A stretch of 5,644 nt of DNA from the NCBI GenBank assembly GCA_902767065.1, contig CACXFW010000199.1:1-5644 (forward strand), written 5' to 3'. Source of the stretch: an uncultured Lachnospiraceae bacterium. Its GTDB lineage: Bacteria > Bacillota > Clostridia > Lachnospirales > Lachnospiraceae. Every line of letters begins with the position of its first letter. Positions within the stretch are counted from its first letter, which is position 1. Shown in pieces: positions 73 to 5,472 of this stretch. Made by a program: the position numbers and the translations under genes. Below the pieces are notes generated by a model that saw only the letters and a list, made by a program, of their open reading frames with translations, did no database searches and was not told the origin of the DNA.

Positions 73-2004
73 ATGTCAGAAAATATCATCGATGTCGACC
101 ATCTGTCGATCCGCTTTAACCTTGGCAATGTGAAGGTCAACAATCTGAAAGAATATACGATCAAGCGGCTGAAGCATGAGCTCACCTTCCAGGAGTTTCT
201 TGCGCTGAAGGACGTTGACCTGCATGTGAAGAAGGGCGAGGCGTGGGGACTGATCGGGACAAATGGCTCCGGCAAGAGTACGCTTCTGAAAACGATCACC
301 GGTATTCTGAAGCCCTACAAGGGGCAGGTGCGGGTGCGCGGGAAGATCGCGCCGATGATTGAGCTCGGCGCCGGATTTGACCAGGAGCTGACCGCGCGGG
401 AGAACATTTTTCTCAACGGTGCGGTCCTGGGCCATTCCAGGAAGTTCATGGAAGAGCATTTTGACGAGATCGTGGAGTTCGCCGAGCTGGAGCGGTTCCT
501 GAATTCTCCGATCAAGAATTATTCCTCCGGGATGAAAGCGCGGCTGGGCTTCTCCGTCGCGACCATGGTGGATCCGGACATCCTGATCTGCGACGAGGTT
601 CTGGCGGTGGGCGACGCGAATTTCCGCAAGCGCTGCAGCGAGCGCATGCAGCAGATGCTGTCCGGCGGAACGACGCTTTTGTATGTGTCGCACGATATTG
701 AATCCGTCAAGCAGCTTTGCGACCATGTCCTGTGGCTGGACCACGGGGAGGTGCTGATGGCCGGGGATCCGGAGACGGTATGTGACGCGTATTCAACCAG
801 GCTGGATAAGGTGTATTCCTTCCGCCGCAAACTGGAACAGGATAAGGAGCAGATGGAACGGGGAGAGTATGTGGATTATCTGGTCGTCGGCGCGGGGCTT
901 TTCGGCTCTGTCTTCGCGCATGAGGCCAGGAAAGCGGGAAAGAAAGTCGCGGTGATCGAGAAGAGGGATCACATCGGCGGGAACATTTACACACAGAAGA
1001 TGGGCGGGATCAATGTGCACAGGTACGGCGCCCATATTTTCCATACTTCGGACCGGAAGGTCTGGGATTATGTGAACCGGTTTGCGGAGTTTAACCAGTA
1101 TATCAACGCGCCTGTCGCAAGGTATAAGGATGAGCTTTACAACCTTCCGTTCAATATGAATACCTTCTCGAAGATGTGGGGCGTGGTGACGCCGGAGGAG
1201 GCCCGGGCGAAGATTCAGGAGCAGATCCGGGAGCTTGCCATTACCGAGCCGAAGAATCTGGAGGAGCAGGCGCTCTCGCTGGTGGGCCGGGATGTGTACG
1301 AGAAGCTGGTGAAGGGATACACGGAAAAACAGTGGGGAAGAGACTGCAAGGACCTGCCGGCATTTATCATCCGGCGGCTGCCGCTTCGTTTTATCTATGA
1401 CAATAACTATTTCACGGACCGGTATCAGGGGATCCCGATCGGGGGGTATACGCAGATCGCGGAGAAGCTGCTGGCGGGCGTTCCGACGCTTTTGAATACC
1501 TCCTGGAAGGAGTACAGCACCCGGCATCCGGACAGCTACGGCAAGGTGATCTTCACCGGCCCGATCGATGAGTACTTTGACTATTCCCTCGGACGTCTGC
1601 AGTTCAGGACGGTGCGGTTTGAAACCGAGGTGCTGGAGACGGACAATTATCAGGGGAACGCGGTCGTCAATTATACGGAACGGGAGGTTCCGTGGACCCG
1701 GATCATCGAGCACAAGTGGTTTGAGTTCGGGAAGGATGCCTCCGGAAATGACATTCCGGGGACGGTGATCTCGAAGGAATTTTCCATGGAATGGGAACCC
1801 GGCATGGAACCGTATTATCCGGTCAATGACGACGTGAACGGGAATCTGTACGGAAAGTACCGGGAACTGGCGCAGAAGGAAGAAAATGTGATCTTCGGCG
1901 GAAGGCTCGGGACCTATCAGTATTACAATATGGATCAGGTGATTGCCAACGCCCTGAGCCTGTGTGAGAAGGAGCTTGGCCGGCGGGTGACGCTGAAGCG
2001 CTAA
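73..2004 (+). CDS. Fusion: Wzt-type polysaccharide-export ABC ATPase + UDP-galactopyranose mutase
   Basis: The product is 643 residues. Residues 1 to about 245 are a Wzt/TagH-like ATPase, which with a Wzm permease exports lipid-linked polysaccharide across the cytoplasmic membrane. Visible motifs are Walker A GTNGSGKST (62-70), signature YSSGM (150-154), Walker B ILICDE (170-175) and the H-loop His207. There is no C-terminal carbohydrate-binding domain. After a short charged linker (about 246-266), residues 267-643 form a full-length Glf, a flavoenzyme that converts UDP-galactopyranose to UDP-galactofuranose. Its motifs are the FAD loop GAGLFG (273-278), RYGAHIFHT (317-325), KQWGRD (419-424), LPLRF (436-440, likely substrate Arg439), GRLQFRT (507-513, likely Arg512) and GRLGTYQYYNMD (610-621). 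Neither half is truncated and the frame is unbroken, so it is a real fusion or a very clean in-frame joining. Asn619 stands where the family usually has Asp. Separate wzt and glf genes sit together in galactan export loci, which supports the role. The domain calls are secure; activity is inferred. Confidence 0.93.
   Translation: MSENIIDVDHLSIRFNLGNVKVNNLKEYTIKRLKHELTFQEFLALKDVDLHVKKGEAWGLIGTNGSGKSTLLKTITGILKPYKGQVRVRGKIAPMIELGAGFDQELTARENIFLNGAVLGHSRKFMEEHFDEIVEFAELERFLNSPIKNYSSGMKARLGFSVATMVDPDILICDEVLAVGDANFRKRCSERMQQMLSGGTTLLYVSHDIESVKQLCDHVLWLDHGEVLMAGDPETVCDAYSTRLDKVYSFRRKLEQDKEQMERGEYVDYLVVGAGLFGSVFAHEARKAGKKVAVIEKRDHIGGNIYTQKMGGINVHRYGAHIFHTSDRKVWDYVNRFAEFNQYINAPVARYKDELYNLPFNMNTFSKMWGVVTPEEARAKIQEQIRELAITEPKNLEEQALSLVGRDVYEKLVKGYTEKQWGRDCKDLPAFIIRRLPLRFIYDNNYFTDRYQGIPIGGYTQIAEKLLAGVPTLLNTSWKEYSTRHPDSYGKVIFTGPIDEYFDYSLGRLQFRTVRFETEVLETDNYQGNAVVNYTEREVPWTRIIEHKWFEFGKDASGNDIPGTVISKEFSMEWEPGMEPYYPVNDDVNGNLYGKYRELAQKEENVIFGGRLGTYQYYNMDQVIANALSLCEKELGRRVTLKR
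844..873 (+). promoter_or_regulatory. Possible internal ribosome binding sites and starts for a free Glf
   Basis: Two in-frame starts sit in the linker just before the mutase half. ATG 853 (residue 261) is preceded by AAGGAG at 844-849, a tight 3-base gap. GTG 871 (residue 267) is preceded by GGGGAG at 860-865 with a 5-base gap. Either would give a protein starting just before the FAD loop, as free-standing Glf proteins do. This may be a relic of the separate gene or a working second start. Confidence 0.3.
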
Positions 2005-2522: not shown

Positions 2523-3395
2523 ATGGAAGTCAAAAGGATCAGCATTCGTGAAGCGAAGAAGCGTATCAAGAGTGATCCGGAGCTTAGCAAGATGCTGGTT
2601 CGCAGCGGATGGAAGGAGATCGCGCTCGACCTTGATGGAGACGGGATGGCGGATGTGTCATTTTCCGCTGAAAAGCCCGGAAGAAAGATTGATACGATGG
2701 CGGTTGATCTGAGTGGAAACGGAGAATACAATCTCTATCTGCATGATCTTGACGGCAACGGAATTCCGGATCTCGTTCTGCTGGCTGAGGATGGAGCGGA
2801 AGAGAGAGCGGTTGTCGCCTTTGGCGGAGAGGTCGAGCTGGGCTTTGTCAATCTTGGCGTCAAGATCGCGAACCTGCTGGTTGCAGAGGACTTTATGAAC
2901 CGGGAGCTGGGGATTTCCCTGGCAGACCTGGCCGCGTACCTGAAGCTTCATGCTGCGGCCATGCTGCTTGAGCTTGATAAGCGGGCAAACGCGCAGGGAA
3001 TCGACAGGGTCTACTATTATCTGAATGATGCCGGAACCTACTACCTGGCAACTGTTGACGGGACGAAACCGAGGGTCAGGCCGTTCGGGACGATTCTCAT
3101 CGACGATGGAAAGCTGTACATCCAGACAGGAAAATCGAAGGCCGTATCGAAGCAGATCAGCCAGAATCCGTTTGTGGAGATCAGCGCCAGCATGAATAAC
3201 GGAACCTGGCTTCGCGTTGAGGCAAAGCTCGTGGAGGACGACAGCCACGATGTCAAGGTGAAGATGCTTGAGAAGATGCCGGCCCTGAAGGCGATGTACA
3301 GCGCGGACGATGACAATATGCAGATGTTTTATCTGAAGGATGCGAAGGCGACCTTCTGCTCCTTTACCGCACAGCCGGAGGAAGTCACCTTCTGA
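2523..3395 (+). CDS. Calcium-loop / PNPOx-like flavin split-barrel fusion protein
   Basis: The product is 290 residues with no signal peptide or membrane segment, so it is probably cytoplasmic. A charged N-terminus (1-30) leads into three Asp/Asn-rich loops of the calcium-binding DxDGDG kind: DLDGDGMAD (36-44), DLSGNGEYN (62-70) and DLDGNGIPD (75-83). The middle (about 100-160) looks helical and is not recognised. Residues about 160-290 are a complete pyridoxamine-phosphate-oxidase-like barrel: YYLATVDGTKPRVRPFG (173-189), KLYIQTG (197-203), a Lys-Gln-containing turn, NPFVEIS (215-221), WLRVEAK (229-235) and FYLKDAKATFCSF (269-281). In Clostridia this barrel is normally a free protein of about 130-140 residues that binds FMN. 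The reaction here is unknown; a flavin reductase or stress-related role is only a guess. The alkyl sulfatase gene follows 91 bases downstream, possibly in the same transcript. The barrel call is strong; calcium binding is inferred. Confidence 0.88.
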   Translation: MEVKRISIREAKKRIKSDPELSKMLVRSGWKEIALDLDGDGMADVSFSAEKPGRKIDTMAVDLSGNGEYNLYLHDLDGNGIPDLVLLAEDGAEERAVVAFGGEVELGFVNLGVKIANLLVAEDFMNRELGISLADLAAYLKLHAAAMLLELDKRANAQGIDRVYYYLNDAGTYYLATVDGTKPRVRPFGTILIDDGKLYIQTGKSKAVSKQISQNPFVEISASMNNGTWLRVEAKLVEDDSHDVKVKMLEKMPALKAMYSADDDNMQMFYLKDAKATFCSFTAQPEEVTF

Positions 3396-3486: not shown

Positions 3487-5472
3487 TTGCGCAGATTCAG
3501 AAGAATAAGACAAACCTGTACCCTGGCCATGACAGCGGCGATGGTCGTGTCATGCACCGCAATGGCGGAGGAAGGAACCGGCCTGAATCCGGATACGAAA
3601 GAGCCAACACAGTATACGATTGACGCGAATAATGAGGTTTACGCCCTGCTTGATTTTGAAGATGAGCGCGAGCTGGAGAATGCACAGCGCGGCCTGATCG
3701 CGGCTCCGGACAGCCTGGTGATCAAGACGGACACCGGAAAGGTGGCGTGGAGCCAGGATGCTTATGCGTTTCTGGATGAAGAAGCGCCTGACAGCGCGAA
3801 TCCCAGCCTGTGGAGAAACACGCAGCTCAACCATGTCTATGGCCTGTTCGAAGTGATGGACGGGATCTATCAGGTCAGGGGATATGACATGTCCAATATT
3901 ACCTTCATCAAGGGAAACACCGGCTGGATTATCTATGATCCGCTGATGACGGTAGAGTGCGCGCAGGCGGCGTTCGAGCTTTTGAAGGAGAATGTGGGGG
4001 ATTATCCGGTAAAGGCAATTCTCTATTCCCATTCTCACGTAGACCATTTCGGCGGCGTGGAAGGAATTGTGTCAGAGGATCAGGTGGAGAAAGAGGGAAT
4101 CCTGATTATCGCTCCGGAGGGGTTTGAAGAGCATGCAGTGAGCGAGAATGTCTATGCGGGAACAGCCATGGGCAGACGCGCCAGCTATCAGTACGGCACT
4201 TTGCTTCAGCCCGGAGAGAAGGGGGCTTTGTGCATCGGAATCGGCATGGGACAGTCCCATGGAACGACATCCTACATTTCCCCGAATACGATTATTTCCG
4301 AGACGGGGCAGAGGATGGTTGTAGACGGCGTGATCATGGAGTTCCAGCTCACGCCCGGAACGGAAGCCCCGGCCGAGATGAACACCTGGTTCCCGCAGAA
4401 GAAGGCGCTGTGGATGGCGGAAAACTGCACGGGAACCCTGCATAACCTGTATACGCTCAGAGGCGCGGAGGTGCGCGACGGACAGGCATGGGCAAACTTC
4501 CTGATGGAGACCCTGAAGCTGTACGGCAAAGATGTTGAGGTGGTGTTCCAGGCGCATAACTGGCCGCACTGGGACAATGCGAATATTGTGGAGTACGTCC
4601 TCAATACTGCAGCCGCCTATAAGTTCATTAACGATCAGACGCTTCTGTACCTGAACGAGGGATACACCAGCACTGAGATCGCGAACATGATCGAGCTCCC
4701 GGAGGAGCTGAAGAAGAACTGGTACACCAGGCAGTATTATGGAACGGTCGCTCACAACTCCAAGGCGGTATACCAGAAGTATATGGGCTGGTATGACGCG
4801 AATCCGATTCATCTGGGAGAGCTGGAGCCGACAGAGCGCGCGAAGAAATTCGTGGAATACCTGGGCGATGTGGACGAAGTGCTCCGCAAGGCCAGGGAAG
4901 ACTATGACAAGGGAGAGTACCAGTGGGTTGCGGAGATCACCGACATGCTGGTCTTTGCGGATCCGCAGAATCAGGACGCCCGCTATCTGTGCGCGGATGC
5001 TCTGGAACAGCTCGCGTACCAGGCGGAAAGCGGAACCTGGAGAAACGCTTATCTGTGCGCGGCGCAGGAGCTTCGGTTTGGCACCAATACGGATCCGGCT
5101 ACCCGCGCGACCACGAGCGGCGGGATTACGTCCCATATGACGCCGGAAATGATTCTGCAGTATCTTGGGATCTATACCGACAGCAATAAGATTGAATACC
5201 TGTCCTTTACGGCGAATATCATCCTTCCGGAGGCTTCCTATGTCCTGGCGGTGAAGAACGGGGTTGTTCTTTATGAGAAGGGGAACCTCCATGAGAAGGC
5301 GGACGCCACATGGACGACCACAAGACAGGGGCTGTTCGCCATTGCGCAGAACAATCAGGACGGAATCAATTCCCTGGTTACGCAGGAAGGCGACACCACG
5401 CTGCTTGAGCGTCTGATGGAAGGAAATGTCGCGGCGGATATGGATATGTTTTTCCATATCATTGAACCGTAA
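3487..5472 (+). CDS. Secreted alkyl sulfatase (type III, zinc beta-lactamase fold; SdsA1/YjcS/BDS1 family)
   Basis: The product is 661 residues, the usual family length. The family hydrolyses alkyl sulfate esters such as dodecyl sulfate to the alcohol plus sulfate with a two-zinc centre. The N-terminus is a signal: Arg-rich 1-9, hydrophobic 10-22. VVSC at 20-23 suggests a lipoprotein anchored at Cys23; cleavage after AMA (25-27) is the alternative. The catalytic domain carries HSHVDH (182-187) as metal ligands, Glu293 in TPGTEAPAEM, Glu312 in WMAEN and His357 in FQAHNWPHW. The spacing between these ligands fits the SdsA1 ligand set as I recall it. Residues about 373-530 match the alkyl-sulfatase dimerisation domain (QYYGTVAHN, KYMGWYDANP, EDYDKGEYQWVAEI, ADALEQLAYQAESGTWRN). 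Residues about 540-661 match the SCP2-like C-terminal domain that shapes the hydrophobic pocket. Gly316 in ENCTGTLHN replaces a His I recall as common there. Family assignment is very secure; the natural substrate is unknown. Confidence 0.95.
   Translation: MRRFRRIRQTCTLAMTAAMVVSCTAMAEEGTGLNPDTKEPTQYTIDANNEVYALLDFEDERELENAQRGLIAAPDSLVIKTDTGKVAWSQDAYAFLDEEAPDSANPSLWRNTQLNHVYGLFEVMDGIYQVRGYDMSNITFIKGNTGWIIYDPLMTVECAQAAFELLKENVGDYPVKAILYSHSHVDHFGGVEGIVSEDQVEKEGILIIAPEGFEEHAVSENVYAGTAMGRRASYQYGTLLQPGEKGALCIGIGMGQSHGTTSYISPNTIISETGQRMVVDGVIMEFQLTPGTEAPAEMNTWFPQKKALWMAENCTGTLHNLYTLRGAEVRDGQAWANFLMETLKLYGKDVEVVFQAHNWPHWDNANIVEYVLNTAAAYKFINDQTLLYLNEGYTSTEIANMIELPEELKKNWYTRQYYGTVAHNSKAVYQKYMGWYDANPIHLGELEPTERAKKFVEYLGDVDEVLRKAREDYDKGEYQWVAEITDMLVFADPQNQDARYLCADALEQLAYQAESGTWRNAYLCAAQELRFGTNTDPATRATTSGGITSHMTPEMILQYLGIYTDSNKIEYLSFTANIILPEASYVLAVKNGVVLYEKGNLHEKADATWTTTRQGLFAIAQNNQDGINSLVTQEGDTTLLERLMEGNVAADMDMFFHIIEP

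Follow-up and report, generated by a model that had tools for sequence, protein, structure and literature searches.

The joining of a polysaccharide-exporter ATPase to a full-length uridine diphosphate (UDP)-galactopyranose mutase (Glf) in one protein is described here from a 5,644-nucleotide stretch of DNA of an uncultured Lachnospiraceae bacterium (contig CACXFW010000199.1 of assembly GCA_902767065.1), referred to below as the window. The kinds of protein that make up this architecture are known, and the architecture itself is new; the open-licence papers searched yielded no description of an ATPase-Glf fusion, although absence from print is thereby not shown. In the reading favoured here, with a probability of roughly 55%, an active mutase is held at the cytoplasmic face of the exporter, and the production of UDP-galactofuranose would take place at the site of polymer assembly and export. 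The carriers of the fusion are mostly uncultured gut bacteria.

The gene occupies positions 73-2004 of the forward strand, on which all features of the gene given below lie, as a single unbroken frame of 643 amino acids from the ATG at 73 to the stop at 2002-2004. The same frame read from an alternative GTG at 64 gives 646 amino acids in the open reading frame listing, and a Shine-Dalgarno-like TAAGGAG (58-64) is located 8 nt ahead of the ATG. The protein is composed of a Wzt/TagH-type ATP-binding domain (residues 1-242; 73-798), a charged linker (residues 243-266; 799-870) and a Glf domain (residues 267-643; 871-2001). Pfam, NCBIfam and residue checks agree on this assignment, which confirms the original prediction, made from the sequence alone, that one uninterrupted frame holds the motifs of an ATP-binding cassette (ABC) ATPase and a full Glf. 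The accompanying claim that the ATPase lacks a carbohydrate-binding domain also stands: the Pfam and NCBIfam scans of the fusion protein gave none, and its C-terminus is GLF.

The ATPase half is matched by Pfam ABC_tran (PF00005) at residues 45-176 with 83 bits against a cut-off of 25. Conservation was assessed in 138 fused sequences, namely 137 database proteins of at least 540 amino acids and the window's own, mostly near relatives. Walker A (GTNGSGKST, residues 62-70; 256-282) has K68 and S69 invariant in set A1 and K68 in 138/138 fused sequences, and the ABC signature (SSGMK, residues 151-155; 523-537) keeps S152 in 138/138 and G153 in 137/138. Walker B (ILICDE, residues 170-175; 580-597), with D174 and the catalytic E175, and the H-loop histidine H207 (691-693) are found in every one of the 138. 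In a Foldseek search the nearest solved ATPase folds, listed after the Glf matches, were TagH 9a4o, Wzt 7k2t, 8dne and 6m96, and TagH 7dd0. The best NCBIfam match among ABC families was NF050108 (galactan_ABC_ATP), whose 208.8 bits fall far short of the equivalog cut-off of 400; we take this family to represent Gram-negative O-antigen export ATPases of the Klebsiella type that are accompanied by a separate glf.

The Glf half is recognised more firmly, with 256 bits for Pfam GLF (residues 411-617; cut-off 26.3) and 390.8 bits for NCBIfam UDP-GALP_mutase TIGR00031 (residues 268-633), above the equivalog cut-off of 303.75. By Foldseek it is 59-60% identical to Campylobacter jejuni 4mo2 and 55% identical to Escherichia coli 1i8t. 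Sequence alignments place the flavin adenine dinucleotide (FAD)-binding GxGxxG at residues 273-278 (889-906) and the GGN FAD motif at residues 302-304 (976-984). R435 (1375-1377) and R543 (1699-1701) align to E. coli R170 and R278 and are taken, by numbering only, as the Klebsiella pneumoniae residues R174 and R280, which are described as contacting the diphosphate of the substrate (PMC3624792). All of the FAD motif and substrate residues are present in the window (G273, G275, G278, G303, N304, R435 and R543); R435 is kept in 136 and R543 in all of the 138 fused proteins. In comparisons with four relatives, the ratio of nonsynonymous to synonymous substitution (dN/dS) was 0.03-0.08 for the ATPase half and 0.08-0.14 for the Glf half, values that are approximate with dS near 1. 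Judged from residues and substitution rates, both halves retain their catalytic residues and evolve under purifying selection.

UDP-N-acetylgalactosamine (UDP-GalNAc) was considered as the substrate and set aside. The nearest solved structure, 4mo2, is a UDP-N-acetylgalactopyranose mutase, but where it carries an Arg, which presumably sets the use of GalNAc, the fusion has H324 (1042-1044), a His as in E. coli Glf. Because this His, found in 138/138 fused sequences with the window among them, replaces the 4mo2 Arg, UDP-galactose is favoured as the substrate of the fused Glf, though not proven. A few fused proteins (P0042, P0076 and that of genome G003, locus L023) have an insertion, partly of low complexity, inside Glf after about residue 388.

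Reality and spread of the fusion

The genome to which the window belongs, as a contig of 5.6 kb, is fragmented (70% complete, 516 contigs), a setting in which an assembly or sequencing error might have merged two genes. This explanation is refuted and keeps a vanishing probability, because independent sequences show the same join. Both domains are present in all 120 best listed homologues, as a BLASTP recheck agrees, and two of the assemblies with the fusion are without metagenome-assembled genome (MAG) in their title: NZ_VULZ01000004 of Porcincola intestinalis and NZ_CATNVD010000003 of Parablautia sp. The 120 two-domain homologues, the independent assemblies and a junction of constant span in 135 of the 138 fused sequences together exclude chance as well as a frame error near 780-900, the region that the original prediction had singled out for confirmation. 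Nor did the other outcome foreseen there occur, a fusion in one assembly only with two genes in its relatives: in the window's genus the fusion is carried by 15 of 19 genomes, P. intestinalis among them, one copy (G002) being truncated by a contig end. Only one of the 120 listed homologues, P0090, has a source-given name, 'UDP-galactopyranose mutase', an example of how database names can conceal the fusion.

Across the family the fusion is rare. No fused match was listed in 42 further genomes searched alongside the genus, and a sample of the family contained the fusion in 6 of 397 genomes from four genera, the remaining matches listed being Glf-only spans. With a junction-spanning query, samples of the class (391 genomes, E up to 1e-75) and of the phylum (398 genomes, E up to 1e-66) gave the fusion only in the window's own genome; weaker or longer-linked fusions could be missed by this query. 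A second genome listed with this query, G298, is a Glf-only match (query residues 168-301) and not a fusion. In a collection of named genomes, the fusion occurs in 13 of the 80 loci kept, among them those of P. intestinalis, Parablautia sp. and 'Candidatus Choladousia', with best-segment identities of 59-74%; the homologues of the 120 list are higher. Locus L046 is fused. In the viral collection, no span of the 80 loci kept reaches the ATPase half, and all begin at residue 236 or later.

The linker, predicted to be 'about 20 charged residues', was described about rightly: it has 24 residues, of which 13 are K, R, D or E. The span from Y240 to D268 measures 29 residues in the 135 fused sequences mentioned above, most of them close to the window, and varies by -1 to +3 among the fetched loci, Parablautia-type group included. 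Its amino acids change faster than those of either domain (dN 0.13-0.39). In an AlphaFold model run with 83 alignment rows, which has a mean predicted local distance difference test score (pLDDT) of 87.3 (74.8 in an earlier model with 27 rows) and a predicted template modelling score (pTM) of 0.62, both folds are matched in the PDB. The model places helices at 233-245 and 250-262 and a short hinge between them at 246-249; pLDDT drops under 50 at residues 245-248. A short, helical tether is thus predicted. An internal start that would yield free Glf was also considered. Residues 261 and 267 of the window's protein correspond to start codons, each with a Shine-Dalgarno-like stretch at short spacing; such a start is not conserved, since the stretch that begins 14 codons ahead of D268 and ends there is devoid of start codons in 18 of 28 fused genes.

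For most of the carriers the fused domain is the only Glf that can be recognised. Of 18 fusion genomes, 15 have no GLF-family match besides it; several of these are incomplete and six are at least 90% complete (G006, G010, G011, G017, G183 and G193), and the fused domain is thus their only recognisable source of UDP-galactofuranose. Four members of the genus lack the fusion; they have no match to GLF of any kind, and one of them is a 100% complete genome. None of the 19 genus genomes has a separate Glf instead of the fusion. From these matches the fused enzyme is likely to be the source of the galactofuranose precursor, if these cells use galactofuranose.

Origin of the fusion and other tails on related ATPases

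In the ATPase tree, the fused proteins form two strong groups, a Porcincola-type group (19 rows, 100/98) and a Parablautia-type group (9 rows, 99/97). A single fused clade (95/79) was recovered in a first version of this tree; in the second, for which five rows were added and four removed (two duplicates and two long branches), with the loss of the tandem pair of G035, the union of the two groups was not recovered and not rejected (approximately unbiased (AU) test, p 0.59). The Glf tree recovers the Parablautia-type group with a Shimodaira-Hasegawa-like approximate likelihood-ratio (SH-aLRT) value of 99, and the Porcincola-type rows are separated only by a branch of 86. A single fused clade was again neither recovered nor rejected for the Glf domain (AU p 0.50), in a test that excluded L051 as a long branch and used 40 of 111 unfused domains. 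On these trees, one fusion event and two are both possible.

The state before fusion is likely to be the layout of locus L203, in which wzm, wzt, glf and a GlfT2-like gene are four adjacent separate genes and 20 nt separate the wzt stop from the glf start. Unfused wzt-glf tandems are also found in L099 and in G035 (= L252). Given such tandems, the stop between neighbouring genes may simply have been lost once or twice, with equal amounts of the two proteins, which would function equally well apart, as the only consequence. The restriction of the fused genes to just two clades of the ATPase tree and their rarity across the family suit this neutral account. What makes it improbable is that the fusion has been retained over several genera with a nearly fixed linker length and a helical prediction, that separate Glf replaces it in no genus genome (0/19), and that other enzyme-like domains have been joined to the same end of related ATPases.

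These other tails emerged from a family search with the ATPase half, in which 8 of the 150 matches listed lie in frames of more than 600 amino acids, the others having 242-389. Five of the eight are Glf fusions. In G025 (L239:3916-5736), a related Wzt-type ATPase is followed by a polysaccharide pyruvyltransferase domain, and the related ATPases of G285 (L257:3981-6365) and G427 (L258:3475-5778) share another tail and are 53% identical over 763 columns. The first part of that tail is sugar nucleotidyltransferase-like, above the Pfam cut-off in L257 and without a match in L258, where the region of the nucleotidyltransferase motif is strongly unlike that of L257; the second part is APH-type kinase-like and above the cut-off only in L257. 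By its domain content, this ATPase group has acquired several biosynthetic-type tails, in few genomes.

A broader proposal can be offered tentatively, and it is rather doubtful at present. The C-terminus of Lachnospiraceae Wzt-type ATPases that lack a carbohydrate-binding domain might be a recurrent docking slot for enzymes that make or tailor the building block of the exported polymer (Glf, nucleotidyltransferase-kinase, pyruvyltransferase), which in some lineages would have decayed to a precursor sensor that licenses export. If true, the exporter carries its own precursor factory, and the tails show how the recognition domains of exporters arise.

Genes around the fusion

The neighbourhood was tabulated for 26 fusion loci, several of only 3-5 kb, with neighbours labelled by similarity to a few scanned genes. 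A Wzm-type ABC-2 permease lies upstream of the fusion in 24 of the 26, and in the other two (G002 and G267) a contig end interrupts the locus; the permease expected by the original prediction is thus found in the relatives. It directly precedes the fusion except in G008 (L230), where one TagB/F-like gene stands between. Outside the table, L015 has a permease upstream and L017 part of one.

The remaining neighbours are at odds with the O-antigen galactan setting that had been proposed. TagB/F-like (PF04464) genes occur in 16/26 fusion loci and IspD/TarI-like genes in 11/26, none of them on the window's contig, and the loci of the Parablautia-type group carry a sugar dehydratase/epimerase-like gene, LicD and a family 2 glycosyltransferase (GT2). 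A DUF6273 gene is present in 15/26 loci, in the Porcincola-type group, and is upstream of the permease in 14. P. intestinalis is reported to stain Gram-positive (PMC7738495). A galactofuranosyltransferase near the fusion had likewise been anticipated, and no GlfT2-like gene was found in the 26 fusion loci. Such a gene is present in 8 of 10 examined loci that hold a same-clade ATPase without Glf fusion (L052, L076, L081, L083, L203 and L261-L263); L257 and L258, whose ATPases carry other tails, have none in 10.5 kb. A neighbour tagged as TarJ was rejected as such, being an epimerase/dehydratase of the short-chain dehydrogenase/reductase (SDR) family by Pfam and NCBIfam and not an established TarJ. 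The genes of L230 that were tested did not reach the curated NCBIfam cut-offs for TarL and ribitol-5-phosphate cytidylyltransferase.

DUF6273-type genes with one predicted membrane segment were noted at L039:7824-9023, L228:11035-12477 and L042:7804-8967. On the contig of P. intestinalis that carries the fusion, an unfused second Glf (62%; L039:152-1315) lies about 8.7 kb upstream. The window's genome has another TagGH/Wzm-Wzt-like pair (G000:C121, L226), with an ATPase that is 43% identical in a 453-aa frame and a permease that is 24% identical; the fusion is therefore not the only polymer-exporter candidate of this genome.

In the window itself, an identical 44-nt direct repeat is found at both contig ends (1-44 and 5577-5620), and the right copy is part of a repeat of about 105 nt that recurs at other places of the genome; this repetition is probably what caused the break in the assembly immediately ahead of the fusion gene. 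An interspersed repeat at 2127-2299 is found dozens of times in the genome, as full or partial copies, and 2120-2300 folds into a branched hairpin of very high stability (-108 kcal/mol, z -14.6); when the window, this repeat included, was scanned with Rfam, no match came up. Further along are a PNPOx-like protein, just below the Pfam cut-off (2523-3395), and an alkyl-sulfatase-type protein of the metallo-beta-lactamase fold (3487-5472), neither of which has a close match beside the fusion in the relatives' loci examined.

Proposed function and comparison with known systems

The original prediction suggested a tethered supply of UDP-galactofuranose or an export that responds to precursor synthesis, and both are possible. 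It also pointed to the match between the dimerisation of Glf and that of the ATPase, which is plausible. Bacterial mutases of this kind tend to be dimers, according to one source (PMC3624792), and with an exporter that has two ATPase subunits, it is natural to picture the mutase as a pair beneath the permease. In the proposed mechanism, two ATPase subunits would come together below the permease dimer, while the fused mutase domains would pair via their usual dimer contact. The UDP-galactofuranose produced locally would then feed a transferase that acts on a lipid-linked polymer, which may be a teichoic-acid-like phosphopolymer containing galactofuranose. A tethered and working mutase is favoured because the fused Glf is the likely source of the precursor, if these cells use galactofuranose, and because of this natural pairing. 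The retained catalytic residues of both halves, the almost constant linker length, the occurrence in several genera and the permease beside the fusion in relatives also speak for it, as do the separate genes of the sister clusters.

The serious rival is a role in sensing, for which the odds are clearly lower. Here Glf would be a recognition tail that replaces the carbohydrate-binding domain of some Wzt proteins, and export would be gated when this tail binds UDP-galactose/UDP-galactofuranose or the end of the polymer. In the Wzt of terminated O antigens, a carbohydrate-binding module is described as binding the end of the glycan (PMC11231755), and Glf occupies the position of this module. The rival is taken seriously because related ATPases bear other enzyme-like tails, one of which still matches the nucleotidyltransferase family in L257 and no longer in L258, and because active-site residues are gone from two of the fused Glf domains: P0121 (= L051, L051:10001-11920) and P0122 keep the domain and the fusion with the substrate Arg R435, Y582, Y617 and D621 replaced. 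The Glf domain of these two proteins is probably non-catalytic to judge from the replacements. Against sensing as the general role, R435 is kept in nearly all fused proteins and most of the genomes have no GLF match other than the fused domain, so that most must make UDP-galactofuranose if the cell uses it, and the window's protein has every residue checked.

Several observations weigh against a tethered, working mutase. The retention of the fusion in P0121 and P0122 despite the replaced residues suggests that there can be other grounds for keeping the tail, and G003, G004 and G018 carry an additional separate Glf. The window's contig begins within a repeat, 72 nt ahead of the gene, and a close permease was not found in its 70% complete genome, where the only matches to the permease of G009 are 23-24% identical. 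PF17994, a model that also misses the gene of L076, detected no GlfT2-like gene in 22 genomes that have the fusion or belong to the same genus, and a whole-protein search found none in 15 genomes, 14 of them with the fusion. The low pLDDT of the hinge together with the pTM means that the relative placement of the two domains is not predicted. Finally, Glf is described in Mycobacterium smegmatis as mainly cytosolic and Wzm-Wzt as separate (PMC10951656), from which it follows that tethering is not generally needed.

The fusion bears on a wider question, as it is not settled how polymer synthesis and ABC export are coupled. For mycobacteria, one report describes an interaction of the galactofuranosyltransferase GlfT2 with Wzm-Wzt as proposed and still under exploration (PMC10951656). 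The fusion physically links a precursor enzyme to the exporter motor, and coupling is therefore directly testable by separating the two halves. It is present in at least one cultured anaerobe.

Comparison with known systems underlines both the familiar and the unusual in this protein. It shares the ATPase fold and motifs with Wzt and TagH (Aquifex aeolicus Wzt 7k2t and 6m96; Bacillus subtilis TagH 7dd0), and an ABC-2 permease adjoins it in the relatives; their C-terminus is bare or bears a carbohydrate-binding module or another tail, whereas that of the fusion is a full-length flavoenzyme. The Klebsiella-type galactan ATPase family NF050108 is its best NCBIfam ABC match, yet one well under the cut-off. 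With Glf of E. coli (1i8t) and C. jejuni (4mo2) it has the same full-length domain and kept active-site residues in common, but Glf is normally a free protein and is here the C-terminal half of an exporter ATPase. The mycobacterial galactan pathway (Glf, GlfT1/GlfT2 and Wzm-Wzt) employs the same pair of mutase and ABC exporter, and the unfused sister clusters also have a GlfT2-like gene; its proteins are separate, whereas the fusion genomes searched gave no GlfT2 match and the relatives' loci have teichoic-acid-type neighbours. Similar in design are the fusions of L239, L257 and L258, in which a related ATPase carries a biosynthetic-type domain at the same end, with a different enzyme in each kind and an occurrence in one genome for the first and two for the other.

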